Source: Deltaproteobacteria bacterium
GTDB taxonomy: Bacteria > Desulfobacterota > GWC2-55-46 > UBA9637
NCBI GenBank assembly: GCA_016219285.1
Contig: JACRNJ010000043.1
Coordinates: forward strand, 1-43,989
DNA: 43,989 nucleotides
Direction: 5' to 3'
In this document: positions 7,281 to 40,978 of the stretch, piece after piece
How positions within the stretch are numbered: the first letter of the stretch is position 1
Layout of the letters: every line of letters starts with the position of its first letter
Position numbers and translations under genes: made by a program
The notes under the pieces: generated by a model
Databases searched by the model: none
The model's input: the letters and a program-made list of their open reading frames with translations, nothing else
What the model was told of the DNA's origin: nothing

Positions 7281-7291
7281 TGTTTTAAACC

Positions 7292-7324
7292 GTAAAATAG
7301 CGATTGAAACACTCGCTATTTTAC
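7292..7324. repeat. Hairpin with 12-bp perfect stem and 9-nt loop
   Basis: GTAAAATAGCGA (7292-7303), loop TTGAAACAC (7304-7312), TCGCTATTTTAC (7313-7324). On the minus strand the loop is GTGTTTCAA, close to the loops of the GC-stem hairpins in uvrC. It lies 11 bases upstream of the FAD dehydrogenase start. Confidence 0.8.
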
Positions 7325-7331
7325 AAACCTG

Positions 7332-7399
7332 CGATTTGGAGCGAGGCAACCGTGTTGCCGTTTGTTTTTACGCCGACACGGTCTGCTTGCTCCAAATCG
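7332..7399. repeat. 68-bp palindromic element (second copy lies inside a gene at 35295)
   Basis: CGATTTGGAGC (7332-7342) pairs with GCTCCAAATCG (7389-7399). Inside, the arms continue as imperfect ACCGTG/CACGGT stems. Its reverse complement matches plus strand 35293-35355, within the CoA-activase gene, over nearly its whole length, including TGTCGGCGTA and ACGGCAACACGGTTGCCT. Confidence 0.8.
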
Positions 7400-7423
7400 G
7401 TGAACATACGGCTCGTCGTAAAT

Positions 7424-7470
7424 AACACACCCCTTTAGTCCCCTCTCGAGAGGGGATTTAGGGGTGTGTT
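7424..7470. repeat. Long palindrome, C/G-rich
   Basis: AACACACCCCT (from 7424) mirrors AGGGGTGTGTT (to 7470), and TCCCCTCTC (7439-7447) mirrors GAGAGGGGA (7448-7456). Only the middle AT-rich part differs between the arms. It is the third of five palindromes in a row. Confidence 0.75.
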
Positions 7471-7488
7471 GTCTAACAGGCAACTTGC

Positions 7489-7515
7489 CCTTGACAGGTG
7501 AAACGTCTGTCAAGG
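7489..7515. repeat. Inverted repeat CTTGACAG...CTGTCAAG
   Basis: CTTGACAG and CTGTCAAG flank GTGAAACGT-like spacer sequence. The arms resemble the terminal repeat of family B (CCCTTGACAAATTAT) in their first bases. Confidence 0.6.
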
Positions 7516-7524
7516 ACTTGCCAG

Positions 7525-32582: not shown

Positions 32583-32699
32583 CCTAAAACGCCATTCTGG
32601 ACTAATAGAAGAACTTCAATAGACATTTCTCTTCAGCTCAGGGTGATGCGTGTTATTCAAAGGTCTCAAGATTAGAGTTCAAATATGTGGAGGTATACC

Positions 32700-35600
32700 A
32701 TGAATAGAAATGAATTTGTTTTTATAGGTATTGACATAGGCTCTGTCAGTGTAAATACGGTAGTTATTGATGAAAGCAGAAATGTCATTGAGGAGCGCTA
32801 TACAAGAACAAAAGGCCAGCCGCTGGAGACAACATTTGCTGTTCTTGCCGATGTTCTTACAAGGTTTCCTGTTCATATGATAAAGGCGGCTGTTACAGGC
32901 TCGGCTGGGAAACTGATTGCTCCTCTCATAGGTGCGAGCTTTACAAACGAGGTCATTGCCCAGGCAAAGGCTGTCGAATATTTTCATCCGGAGGTACGAA
33001 CAGTAATAGAGATGGGCGGCGAAGACGCAAAATTACTTCTTTTTGCGCCTGATGGTGATAGCGGAAAAATAAGGATCGAAGACTTTCAGATGAACTCTGT
33101 TTGTGCTGCAGGCACAGGTTCTTTTCTTGATCAGCAGGCAACGCGGCTTAATCTTACCATTGAAGAATTCGGTAATCTTGCCCTGCAATCAGAAAAGCCG
33201 CCGAGGATTGCAGGCAGATGCAGCGTGTTTGCTAAAAGCGATATGATACACCTGCAGCAGGCGGCAACACCTGACTATGATATTGTTGCAGGGCTGTGTT
33301 ATGCAGTCGCGAGGAATTTCAAAAGCAGCATCGGAAAGGGCAAAGAGTTTATAAGACCTGTTGCGTTCCAGGGCGGCGTTGCTGCAAATCTGGGCGTTAG
33401 GAAGGCATTCAAAGATGTTCTCGATCTCAAGGATGACGAGTATATTATACCAAAACATTTTGCATCAATGGGCGCCATTGGTTCTGTATTTAATGCAATG
33501 GAGAAGATGCGGGGTTCAAGGGTTCAAGGGTTCAAGGGTCAAGAAAAGACTGAAACTATATTCAAGGGGCTTAGAGAGTTAGAGGAATATATAAAATCAG
33601 GCAGAAAGAAGGAAAGGGGACTGGATTCACTTTCACGGCCCGAAAAACATCCATCACAGAATGATAAAACAGGTTATTGGGGACAGGTTTCAAATCTGTC
33701 TCATGGTGAAAAGGTTCCAGCCTATCTTGGCATAGATGTAGGCTCCACAAGTACCAATGTGGTGCTTATGGATAAGGAGATGAGACTTGTATCCAGGAGA
33801 TACCTGGCAACAGCAGGCAGGCCCATAGAGGCTGTAAGGCAGGGACTTCTTGAGGTGGGGGAAGAGTGTGGAGATAAGGTGGATGTTATCGGTGTTGGCA
33901 CAACAGGTTCAGGCAGATATCTTACAGGAGATTTTGTTGGCGCAGATATCATAAGAAATGAGATTACTGCCCAGGCGACCGCTGCTGCTGTCATTGATCC
34001 CACAGTAGACACAATCTTTGAGATAGGCGGTCAGGATTCAAAATATATTGCATTAAAAAGCGGGGTTGTTGTTGATTTTGAGATGAACAAGGTTTGCGCT
34101 GCCGGCACAGGTTCGTTTCTTGAAGAACAGGCAGAGAGGATTGGCATATCAATAAAGGGCGAATTCAGCGAACTTGCGCTTGGCTGCGGCGCTCCTGCCT
34201 CCATGGGAGAGCGCTGCACGGTCTTTATTGAAAGCGATATGGTTCACCACCAGCAGAAGGGCGCTGGCAAGGACGAGCTTGTTGCAGGGCTTTCCTATTC
34301 CATTGTGCATAATTATCTGAACAGGGTTGTGGGAGACAGAAGGATCGGCGAGAATATATTTTTTCAGGGAGGCACTGCGGCAAATCTCGGTGTTGTCGCT
34401 GCATTTGAAAAGGTAACCGGCAGAAAGATTACTGTTCCTGCAAACCACGATGTTACCGGCGCAATAGGCGTGGCAATACTTGCAATGCAGGAAAAGAACC
34501 CGGAGAAAAGGACTAATTTTAAGGGATTTGACCTCAGCAAGAAGAAATATACCCTGACATCGTTTGAATGCAGAGACTGTTCAAACATATGCGACATAAA
34601 AAAGGTTGTCGTAGAAGGAGATGAGCCTCTCTATTACGGCAGCCGCTGTGAAAAGTATGATATAAGCATGGCGGCAAAGAAAAATAATCCCATCCCCGAT
34701 CTTTATCAGGAGAGGGAAAAGATATTATTTTCATCGTATAAAGGGAAAAAACTTTCTGAGGATGCGCCGTCTATCGGCATCCCAAGGATACTGTACATGT
34801 ATGAGATGTATCCTTTCTGGAAGGCATTTTTCCATGAGCTTGGTTTCAAGGTTATACTCTCATCACCTACCAACAGAGAGATTATACGGGAAGGGGTGGA
34901 GAGGATAGTTACAGAGACCTGCTTCCCTATCAAGGTAAGCCACGGACATATCCAGGAACTGATAAACAAAGGTGTAAAAAAGCTCTTCCTTCCCAGCATA
35001 GTAAATCTAAGGCCTGCAAAGAAAGGCCAGACATTTACTTACCACTGTCCGTATGTCCAGACAATGCCGTATCTCTCTGAATCAGCATTTGATTTCAGCG
35101 GGCTTGGTATTGAGGTGTTGAAGCCTGTCATACACTTCAATAAGCCGGAAAGGATTAGGCAAAAAGAGTTTTATGAATTCGGGAAGATGCTCGGCAAAAA
35201 TCAAGGCGAGATAGATAATGCCCTTGCATCGGCTGAAAAAAGTCAGATGTCTTTCTACAAGAGGATGCAGGAAAGAGGCAGAGAGGCGTTAAATATGGAG
35301 CGAGCCGACCATGTCGGCGTAGAAACACGGCAACACGGTTGCCTTGGTCCAGATGATATAGCTCTCGTGATTGTAGGCAGGCCGTATAACACCATGGATA
35401 ACGGCATAAACCTTGAATTGCCTCAGAAGCTGAGAGACATGGGCGTCTGTGCAATACCATTTGACATGCTGCCGGTGGATGATGCAATAGACGACACCCT
35501 TGCAGCAGATATGTATTGGAAGTCGGGTCAGAGGATTTTGTCAGCCGCAAAGTTGGTAAACGAGAATCCAAATCTTTATGCTGTCTATATTACAAATTTT

Positions 35601-37007
35601 GGCTGCGGCCCTGATTCGTTTATCACACATTTCTTTAAAGATGTTGCAAAGGGAAAACCATTCCTCCAGCTTGAAATAGACGAACATTCCGCTGATGCAG
35701 GCGCAATAACAAGGTGTGAGGCGTTTTTAGACAGCCTGAGGAATATCAGAAAAAGAAGTCAAAAGTCAGAAGTCAGAAGTCAGAAGATGGAAAAACAGCC
35801 TGTTCACAGGACCGGGCTTAAGAAAAAGATTTATCTGCCCAATATGGCTGATGCTGTTTATGCAATGAAAGCGGCCTTTGAGGCATGCGGTATTGAGGCG
35901 GAGATAATACATGAGCCTGACGATGAGACCCTTAAATGGGGCAGAAGATATACCTCCGGCAGAGAGTGTTATCCGAGCATCATTACGACAGGCGATATGG
36001 TAAAGATTATCAAGAGGCCTGATTTTGAGCCGGAGAGGTCTGCGTTTTTTATGCCTTCAGGCAATGGGCCTTGCAGATTTGGCCAGTATAATCGTTACCA
36101 TCGGCTCATACTTGATGAGATGGGCTATAAAGATGTGCCAGTCTATGCCCCTGACCAGGACGAGGCTTTTTATAAGGAACTTGGCATGGTCGGCGGCAAC
36201 TTTCCACGACTTGCGTGGTGGGGCATAGTTGCCATAGATATACTTGAAAAGCGGCTTCGTGAGACAAGGCCCTACGAAAAGAATCCAGACGAAACAGAAA
36301 AGGTATACTGGGAAAGCGTCCATAAAATATGCGCTGTAATAAAAGAAAAACGGTTCCCTGAAAAAGAGATCATAGAGGCAAAACAGGCATTTCTTGCAAT
36401 ACCGACCTATGATAAAAAAGACAAGCCTGTTGTCGGCGTCGTTGGAGAGATATATGTAAGGAGCAACAGATTCAGTAATGAAGACCTTGTTAAGCAGTTA
36501 GAGGCGCTTGGCGCAGAGGTAAGGCTGCCGCCCATCGGTGAATGGATTTATTACACCAACTTCCTGGCAAAGAGGAGAAACTGGGAGAGGGGGAATTACG
36601 GCCTCTATATCAGGACAAAAATAAATGATTTCTTCCAGAAGCGGGATGAACATAAATTTTTAAACATACTTGATGGAGATTTGAGAGGCGGGCATGAGCC
36701 GACTACAGAAGAAGTGTTGAAACTCTCCAAGCCTTATGTCCATGACTCCTTTGAGGGCGAGGCTGTGTTAAGCGTGGGCAAGGCAATGGATTATATACGG
36801 AATGGCGCTCACGGGATTGTAAATGCCATGCCTTTTACCTGTATGCCAGGGACAGTCGTGAATGCGATACTGAAAAAGGTTAGAGAAGAAAAAGGCAATA
36901 TCCCATATCTCAATATGGTCTACGAGGGTCTTGAAGACACAAACTCCAAAACAAGGATGGAGGCATTTGTGCATCAGGCAAGGGAGTATAGGGAGAGACA
37001 AGGCTAA
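32700..37007 (+). CDS. Giant BcrA/HgdC-type CoA activase-like protein
   Basis: 1435 residues. Two actin-fold ATPase domains in tandem (about 8-265: FIGIDIGSVSVNTVVID, VCAAGTGSFLDQQ, GRCSVFAKSDM; and about 345-600: LGIDVGSTSTNVVL, VCAAGTGSFLEEQ, ERCTVFIESDM). Then a DUF2229-type domain (about 690-1010, GIPRILYMYEMYPFWKAFF, ETCFPIKVSHG) and a dehydratase-component-like end (GRECYPSIITTGDM, PCRFGQYNRYH, FTCMPGT). Relatives energise electrons for 2-hydroxyacyl-CoA dehydratases or benzoyl-CoA reductases with ATP and a bridging [4Fe-4S] cluster; the substrate here is unknown. GGAGG precedes ATG 32700. Repeats are encoded at about 270-282, 327-335, 866-884 and 1018-1030, mostly in linkers. Confidence 0.88.
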   Translation: MNRNEFVFIGIDIGSVSVNTVVIDESRNVIEERYTRTKGQPLETTFAVLADVLTRFPVHMIKAAVTGSAGKLIAPLIGASFTNEVIAQAKAVEYFHPEVRTVIEMGGEDAKLLLFAPDGDSGKIRIEDFQMNSVCAAGTGSFLDQQATRLNLTIEEFGNLALQSEKPPRIAGRCSVFAKSDMIHLQQAATPDYDIVAGLCYAVARNFKSSIGKGKEFIRPVAFQGGVAANLGVRKAFKDVLDLKDDEYIIPKHFASMGAIGSVFNAMEKMRGSRVQGFKGQEKTETIFKGLRELEEYIKSGRKKERGLDSLSRPEKHPSQNDKTGYWGQVSNLSHGEKVPAYLGIDVGSTSTNVVLMDKEMRLVSRRYLATAGRPIEAVRQGLLEVGEECGDKVDVIGVGTTGSGRYLTGDFVGADIIRNEITAQATAAAVIDPTVDTIFEIGGQDSKYIALKSGVVVDFEMNKVCAAGTGSFLEEQAERIGISIKGEFSELALGCGAPASMGERCTVFIESDMVHHQQKGAGKDELVAGLSYSIVHNYLNRVVGDRRIGENIFFQGGTAANLGVVAAFEKVTGRKITVPANHDVTGAIGVAILAMQEKNPEKRTNFKGFDLSKKKYTLTSFECRDCSNICDIKKVVVEGDEPLYYGSRCEKYDISMAAKKNNPIPDLYQEREKILFSSYKGKKLSEDAPSIGIPRILYMYEMYPFWKAFFHELGFKVILSSPTNREIIREGVERIVTETCFPIKVSHGHIQELINKGVKKLFLPSIVNLRPAKKGQTFTYHCPYVQTMPYLSESAFDFSGLGIEVLKPVIHFNKPERIRQKEFYEFGKMLGKNQGEIDNALASAEKSQMSFYKRMQERGREALNMERADHVGVETRQHGCLGPDDIALVIVGRPYNTMDNGINLELPQKLRDMGVCAIPFDMLPVDDAIDDTLAADMYWKSGQRILSAAKLVNENPNLYAVYITNFGCGPDSFITHFFKDVAKGKPFLQLEIDEHSADAGAITRCEAFLDSLRNIRKRSQKSEVRSQKMEKQPVHRTGLKKKIYLPNMADAVYAMKAAFEACGIEAEIIHEPDDETLKWGRRYTSGRECYPSIITTGDMVKIIKRPDFEPERSAFFMPSGNGPCRFGQYNRYHRLILDEMGYKDVPVYAPDQDEAFYKELGMVGGNFPRLAWWGIVAIDILEKRLRETRPYEKNPDETEKVYWESVHKICAVIKEKRFPEKEIIEAKQAFLAIPTYDKKDKPVVGVVGEIYVRSNRFSNEDLVKQLEALGAEVRLPPIGEWIYYTNFLAKRRNWERGNYGLYIRTKINDFFQKRDEHKFLNILDGDLRGGHEPTTEEVLKLSKPYVHDSFEGEAVLSVGKAMDYIRNGAHGIVNAMPFTCMPGTVVNAILKKVREEKGNIPYLNMVYEGLEDTNSKTRMEAFVHQAREYRERQG
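33511..33543 (+). repeat. Tandem GGTTCAAG octamers in the activase linker
   Basis: GGTTCAAG three times (33513-33536) followed by GGTCAAG. It encodes GSRVQGFKGQE between the first and second ATPase domains. Confidence 0.8.
33680..33702 (+). repeat. C-type hairpin in the activase linker
   Basis: GGGACAG (33680-33686), 9-nt GTTTCAAAT, CTGTCTC (33696-33702), one G-T pair. It encodes GQVSNLSH just before the second ATPase domain. Confidence 0.7.
35295..35353 (-). repeat. Copy of the 7332-7399 palindromic element, in frame
   Basis: It shares TGGAGC, ATGTCGGCGTA/GTGTCGGCGTA and ACGGCAACACGGTTGCCT with the reverse complement of the intergenic element at 7332. It encodes ERADHVGVETRQHGCLG, placed between GREALNM and the conserved IALVIVGRPYN. 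That distance is about 14 residues longer than I expect for the family. Confidence 0.8.
35757..35786 (+). repeat. Tandem AGTCAGA heptamers in the activase gene
   Basis: AGTCAAA then AGTCAGA three times, seven bases each. It encodes SQKSEVRSQK in a linker before KKKIYLPNMADAV. Confidence 0.8.
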
Positions 37008-40830: not shown

Positions 40831-40978
40831 GATGAAGTTTCAATAACATATTTCAATTGGATTGACAAGGTAGTGGTTTTTCTTTTAAGATTATTATGTA
40901 ATATTGGGCAAGCCGGCCATATGGATGTAAAAAGGGCAATACGGTTACCTTGCTCCAAAATATAAGAAAGGAATATAT

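Follow-up and report, generated by a model that had tools for sequence, protein, structure and literature searches.

REPINs are REP doublets that form hairpins and are associated with RAYT (TnpA-REP) transposases (PMC3116915, PMC3686654, PMC8266576), and REP sequences are defined by a GTRG tag (PMC3686654). Intragenic GTAG/CGTC REPs were reported in 2013 in Opitutus terrae, Thauera, Thioalkalivibrio and others; in that report, uvrA, polymerase and tRNA-synthetase genes contain REP dimers that keep the frame and encode 20-30 residues in what are argued to be tolerant loops, and the available portion mentions no frame preference (PMC3733652). The in-frame palindromes of Rickettsia and Wolbachia (RPE/WPE) were described before 2013 (reviewed in PMC10969869; PMC4224334). 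No mobilising enzyme is named for them in PMC10969869 or PMC4224334, and according to the 2024 review it is 'conceivable' that something similar happens in other prokaryotes (PMC10969869). The REPIN/RAYT mechanism class, intragenic REPs and the in-frame palindromes of Rickettsia and Wolbachia are thus known already; new here are a repeat family, its ATGG/TTGG tag, its cognate RAYT, its frame bias, and loops in which unrelated repeats are swapped between species.

The element described here shares with REPIN/RAYT systems the inverted tag-plus-hairpin units, short spacer, dispersed and mostly intergenic copies, and a RAYT bracketed by its cognate repeat. It differs in its tag (ATGG/TTGG followed by AGCAAG, against GTAG/GTGG), in having about a fifth of its copies inside genes, and in a single repeat-RAYT pair common to two phyla. 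Like the REPs of PMC3733652, it occurs as in-frame dimers in tolerant loops of the same kinds of gene, but it belongs to another repeat family and lineage, and here the empty state of orthologous sites is documented and the frame bias has been measured. Like RPE/WPE, it is palindromic and is found both between genes and within unrelated core genes whose frame it keeps open, whereas the RPE/WPE hosts are obligate intracellular alphaproteobacteria and the RPEs of PMC10969869 are about 150 bp long. The original prediction compared the element with Rickettsia palindromic elements, which is apt as a description of how it works; anatomy and a flanking RAYT gene indicate an element of REPIN type, and its nearest kin in mechanism are the RAYT-mobilised REPINs.

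The element within the activase gene

The window, meaning the whole 43,989-nucleotide stretch analysed, contains the following features:

7288..7522, no strand assigned: 235-bp composite interspersed repeat holding the intergenic copy, with repeat copies elsewhere in the genome
7334..7396, minus strand: intergenic element copy (full palindrome 7332-7399), by BLAST, covariance model and fold
32685..37007, plus strand: host gene, a 1440-aa 2-hydroxyacyl-CoA-dehydratase-type activase with Pfam PF01869 and PF09989 (BcrAD_BadFG and DUF2229)
33679..33702, plus strand: second, unrelated palindromic repeat (GGGGACAGRTTTSAAATCTGTCCC type, also given as GGGGACAGATTTGAAATCTGTCCC type), in frame as part of YWGQVSNLSHG
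35294..35354, plus strand: REPIN-like element in frame in the activase gene, residues 871-890 MERADHVGVETRQHGCLGPD, by BLAST and covariance model
40902..40960, plus strand: degenerate third copy, intergenic, by covariance model (32 bits, E 8e-6)

The copies at 35294-35354 and 7334-7396 are 84% identical over 62-64 bp (BLAST against the 2.28-Mb genome, E 2.7e-13), with covariance-model scores of 79 and 82 bits (E 4e-20 and 6e-21), which bears out the claim that the palindrome and the activase stretch are one repeat in opposite orientation. The intergenic copy folds as single-stranded DNA at -24.4 kcal/mol (z -6.2). Both copies share the 15-mer GGCAACACGGTTGCC, which occurs exactly 11 times genome-wide and gives 25 matches with two mismatches allowed, versus 2 for the reversed control. 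The surrounding composite repeat consists of several palindromes joined together; two more near-full copies (95-96%) and many partial copies lie elsewhere in the genome, and its parts are found at dozens of places.

Within the activase open reading frame, MERADHVGVETRQHGCLGPD stands directly before IALVIVGRPYN, in frame as predicted. The peptide lies at the claimed place, although the earlier numbering of 866-884 is consistent with counting from the internal Met6, the residues being 871-890 in the 1440-aa frame. Activase homologues were found in 53 of the 59 genomes searched, its own included, and 29 of them, with relatedness from genus to class level, were aligned. All 29 lack the 15-17 residues of the insert, with genus, family, order and class homologues gapped where the peptide sits, whereas the residues on either side (GREALN ... 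DIALVIVGRPYN) are conserved across the alignment; the peptide is therefore not ancestral, in agreement with the alignment check proposed originally. In one of these homologues, that of the relative G006, a copy of the element lies at another position, within the linker that precedes the second BcrAD domain (MEQANHVGVHAQHGVNTAARS). In the DNA alignment, about 10 bp of the G006 gene (TGATATTAAA) corresponds to 61 bp of element in the window gene. The suggestion of a mobile repeat that can add a peptide to a protein is supported, with the refinement that the loop DNA looks replaced or remodelled, not cleanly split. In the AlphaFold2 model of a fragment, the insert (residues 199-213) joins a long helix to a strand and has pLDDT < 50, which predicts a disordered, floppy loop.

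The second palindromic repeat of the activase gene, at 33679-33702, sits in a linker and is found at 17 genome places with up to 3 mismatches (reversed control 0); its peptide is common to the relatives G001 and G007, and perhaps G008. The gene also contains short in-frame tandem arrays at 33512-33543 (GGGTTCAA) and 35755-35788 (GTCAGAA-type), and similar arrays occupy Pth and CzcA loops in sister genomes.

Anatomy and distribution of the repeat

The covariance model, built from 29 copies, has 62 positions. A copy of about 62 bp consists of two inverted units of about 30 nt separated by a short variable spacer, each unit comprising a WTGG-AGCAAG tag (TGGAGCAAG) followed by a small hairpin, either GCCGAC-CRT-GTCGGC or GGCAAC-ACG-GTTGCC. 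Alignment, folds and pair counts agree on inverted, hairpin-capable REP units, and the three-helix fold has 97.5% of cells paired versus 27-46% when slid. Across the 126 half-units scored in 78 copies, the 5' tetranucleotide is ATGG in 63, TTGG in 52 and GTGG in 3. The tag before the palindrome is therefore ATGG/TTGG instead of the GT(A/G)G of the REP definition, so the element is not a strict REP member. Chimeric forms in LptD and NAPRT (L198, L195, L225, L226) carry a longer CCCATCCTTCGGATGGG-type hairpin inside the left unit, from which it appears that modules of different repeats recombine.

The covariance model locates 15 distinct places in the window's own 2.28-Mb genome (G000), about 63 copies in G006 and a handful each in G003, G004, G005 and G007; the element is dispersed over coding and non-coding places. 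No copy was found in G001 or G002 of the same genus or in G008-G010 of the same order. A phylum-wide survey of 297 genomes gave matches at E 0.001 in only three besides the window's own, and a GTDB pattern scan found the element also in Nitrospirae/Nitrospiria MAGs. Phages, plasmids and IMG/VR viral contigs contained no match, and an origin from a phage or plasmid was rejected on that basis. A known RNA family was likewise rejected, the element giving only sub-threshold miRNA-hairpin matches. Rickettsia was absent from the results of the pattern scan and the phylum searches, in which this element served as the query.

Insertion sites and reading-frame bias

Sixty-one of the 78 copies in G000 and G006 lie outside recognisable genes, a predominantly extragenic distribution as in REPINs. 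The remaining 17 interrupt recognisable genes without breaking the frame and represent 14 independent sites, so that, as with RPEs, in-frame insertion in unrelated protein-coding genes occurs alongside copies between genes. The sites are in the activase (two), UvrA, LptD, an EndoIII-like HhH-GPD protein, DnaE, Pth, a CzcA-type RND pump, a nicotinate/quinolinate phosphoribosyltransferase-like protein (NAPRT), a PhoR-like kinase (element reversed), IleRS, a P-type ATPase, an HSDR_N-domain protein and a BNR-repeat protein (near its C terminus), the HSDR_N-domain and BNR-repeat hosts being called from weaker family matches.

At 10 of the 14 sites (both activase sites, UvrA, LptD, EndoIII, DnaE, Pth, CzcA, NAPRT and PhoR), the orthologous loops of sister genomes are empty or differently filled. 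Junctions in the DNA alignments show about 10-18 bp replaced, not a clean insertion. No target duplication is visible at the compared sites, where the loops are too changed to exclude very short ones, and the target-site duplication beside terminal inverted repeats that marks a classical MITE (DDE-type) is accordingly not seen there. Some intragenic sites (CzcA L237/L224; EndoIII L243/L199) are shared by some species only, in a pattern that fits no simple tree: the EndoIII site is occupied in G000 and G006 and not in G003, and the CzcA genes of G005 and G006 are 99% alike over the compared segment. The sharing pattern suggests gene transfer, repeated insertion or loss; together with the near-identical CzcA genes, it indicates that gene transfer or loss is also at work.

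The +1 frame (MEQADHVGV...) is read at 11 of the 14 sites, against 3.3 expected when conditioned on the frames open in each copy (P ~ 1e-5 for at least 11, an approximate value since host genes were partly recognised by eye). Among non-coding copies, frames +1, +0 and -0 are open in 75%, and -1 and -2 in about 80%. Peptides of the +1 frame are the poorest in Cys and aromatics, with 0.87 per peptide versus 1.55-4.22 in the other frames. The bias is most simply read as the outcome of selection that retained insertions giving a tolerable peptide.

The flanking RAYT gene and the origin of the inserts

The REPIN layout led to the expectation of a RAYT gene beside the repeat. Y1 transposases are present in all seven genomes searched, and the element immediately flanks one of them, L304:335-880 in G006, at either end. 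This protein scores above the cut-off of NCBIfam NF047646 (REP-associated tyrosine transposase) and is similar to E. coli TnpA-REP (4er8) by alignment. The element-bearing Nitrospirae MAG GWC2_56_14 encodes a 66%-identical RAYT (L382) that is likewise bracketed by the repeat, so that the REPIN feature of a RAYT flanked by its cognate repeat is found in two phyla, at distances of a few to tens of bases. A partial second RAYT in G006 (L389) has repeats upstream, on its one visible side, the other end running off the contig. Other Y1 transposases of the bacterial family, about 20-31% identical to the L304 protein, were discarded as candidates, none having the element above 20 bits nearby. A search at E 1e-10 found no RAYT of the L304 subfamily in the window's own genome, G005 or G007. 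In view of this, the copies in the window's own genome may be relics; more generally, copies in such carriers may be relics or the RAYT gene may be unassembled. For G005 the latter is suggested by a contig end (C5) carrying the repeat pair of the G006 RAYT 5' flank.

The element is probably a REPIN-like miniature mobile repeat spread by RAYT as single-stranded DNA, landing in tolerant loops under in-frame selection. The cognate RAYT, a REP-associated tyrosine (HUH) transposase, would spread the repeat; most surviving copies are intergenic, with a minority in gene segments encoding tolerant surface loops or linkers, where selection would keep only in-frame copies, mostly in the frame giving a soluble peptide low in Cys and aromatics. 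The tolerated loops so added have about 17-20 residues; in the activase, about 17 residues would have been gained in the loop before VIVGRPYN, with little effect on the enzyme expected. We infer that RAYT moved the element, that the peptide is neutral, and that the activase protein is made and active.

In-frame insertion into many core genes, together with the lack of a close RAYT (at E 1e-10) in several carrier genomes, would also be expected of an RPE-type selfish element specialised for coding genes and moved by a non-RAYT enzyme, with the RAYT a bystander. This is improbable given that the repeat closely brackets RAYT genes in two phyla, that most copies are intergenic, and that none of the other Y1 genes examined has a copy above 20 bits nearby. 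About equally unlikely is co-option of the palindrome or peptide for a function, for example as a DNA/RNA signal in the gene or as a tag through which repair and translation proteins interact. The hosts do include DNA-repair and translation genes (UvrA, DnaE, EndoIII, IleRS, Pth), similar hosts are noted for other REPs in PMC3733652, and several sites are common to more than one species; yet sister species hold a different sequence or nothing in the same loops, the activase insert is predicted to be disordered, and peptide tolerance accounts for the frame choice. The insertion at the window site is known from one genome, a draft assembly, which could point to an ancestral peptide, a chance resemblance or an assembly error. 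Such an origin is exceedingly improbable: the 29 homologues without the insert and the E value of 2.7e-13 already refute ancestry and chance, and an assembly chimera was rejected because the activase copy is identical to no other copy and the reading frame is open on both sides. Moreover, several genomes that were assembled independently carry in-frame members of the family in other genes.

Sister-species loops hold other repeats: in Pth and CzcA these are tandem arrays of GGGTCAA type, and there are also peptides such as SEIRNPKSE, RTPNSEL and PVGAGLKPAP, which may be dispersed repeats in those genomes. DnaE of G006 (L124) has a further insert at residues 852-871, FIPLTEGGSFLSPSGGGRGR, absent from the aligned Thermus DnaE and possibly another dispersed repeat. 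From these varied repeats, and from the second palindrome and tandem arrays of the activase gene, loop turnover by repeats seems to be general in this uncultured bacterial family, with the REPIN its best-resolved agent. A tentative and rather doubtful extension is that the sequence of this REPIN lineage has become adapted to translation, one strand and frame yielding a harmless soluble peptide that allows a RAYT-driven repeat to persist in essential genes and, with other repeats, to keep supplying the proteins of free-living bacteria with new loops.

For a protein-coding palindrome family, there are now a likely mobiliser, orthologous sites without the insert and a frame bias that can be measured, which makes the idea of selfish palindromes in working genes testable outside Rickettsia. 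In these bacteria, loops of essential proteins differ between sister species through the exchange of unrelated repeats.
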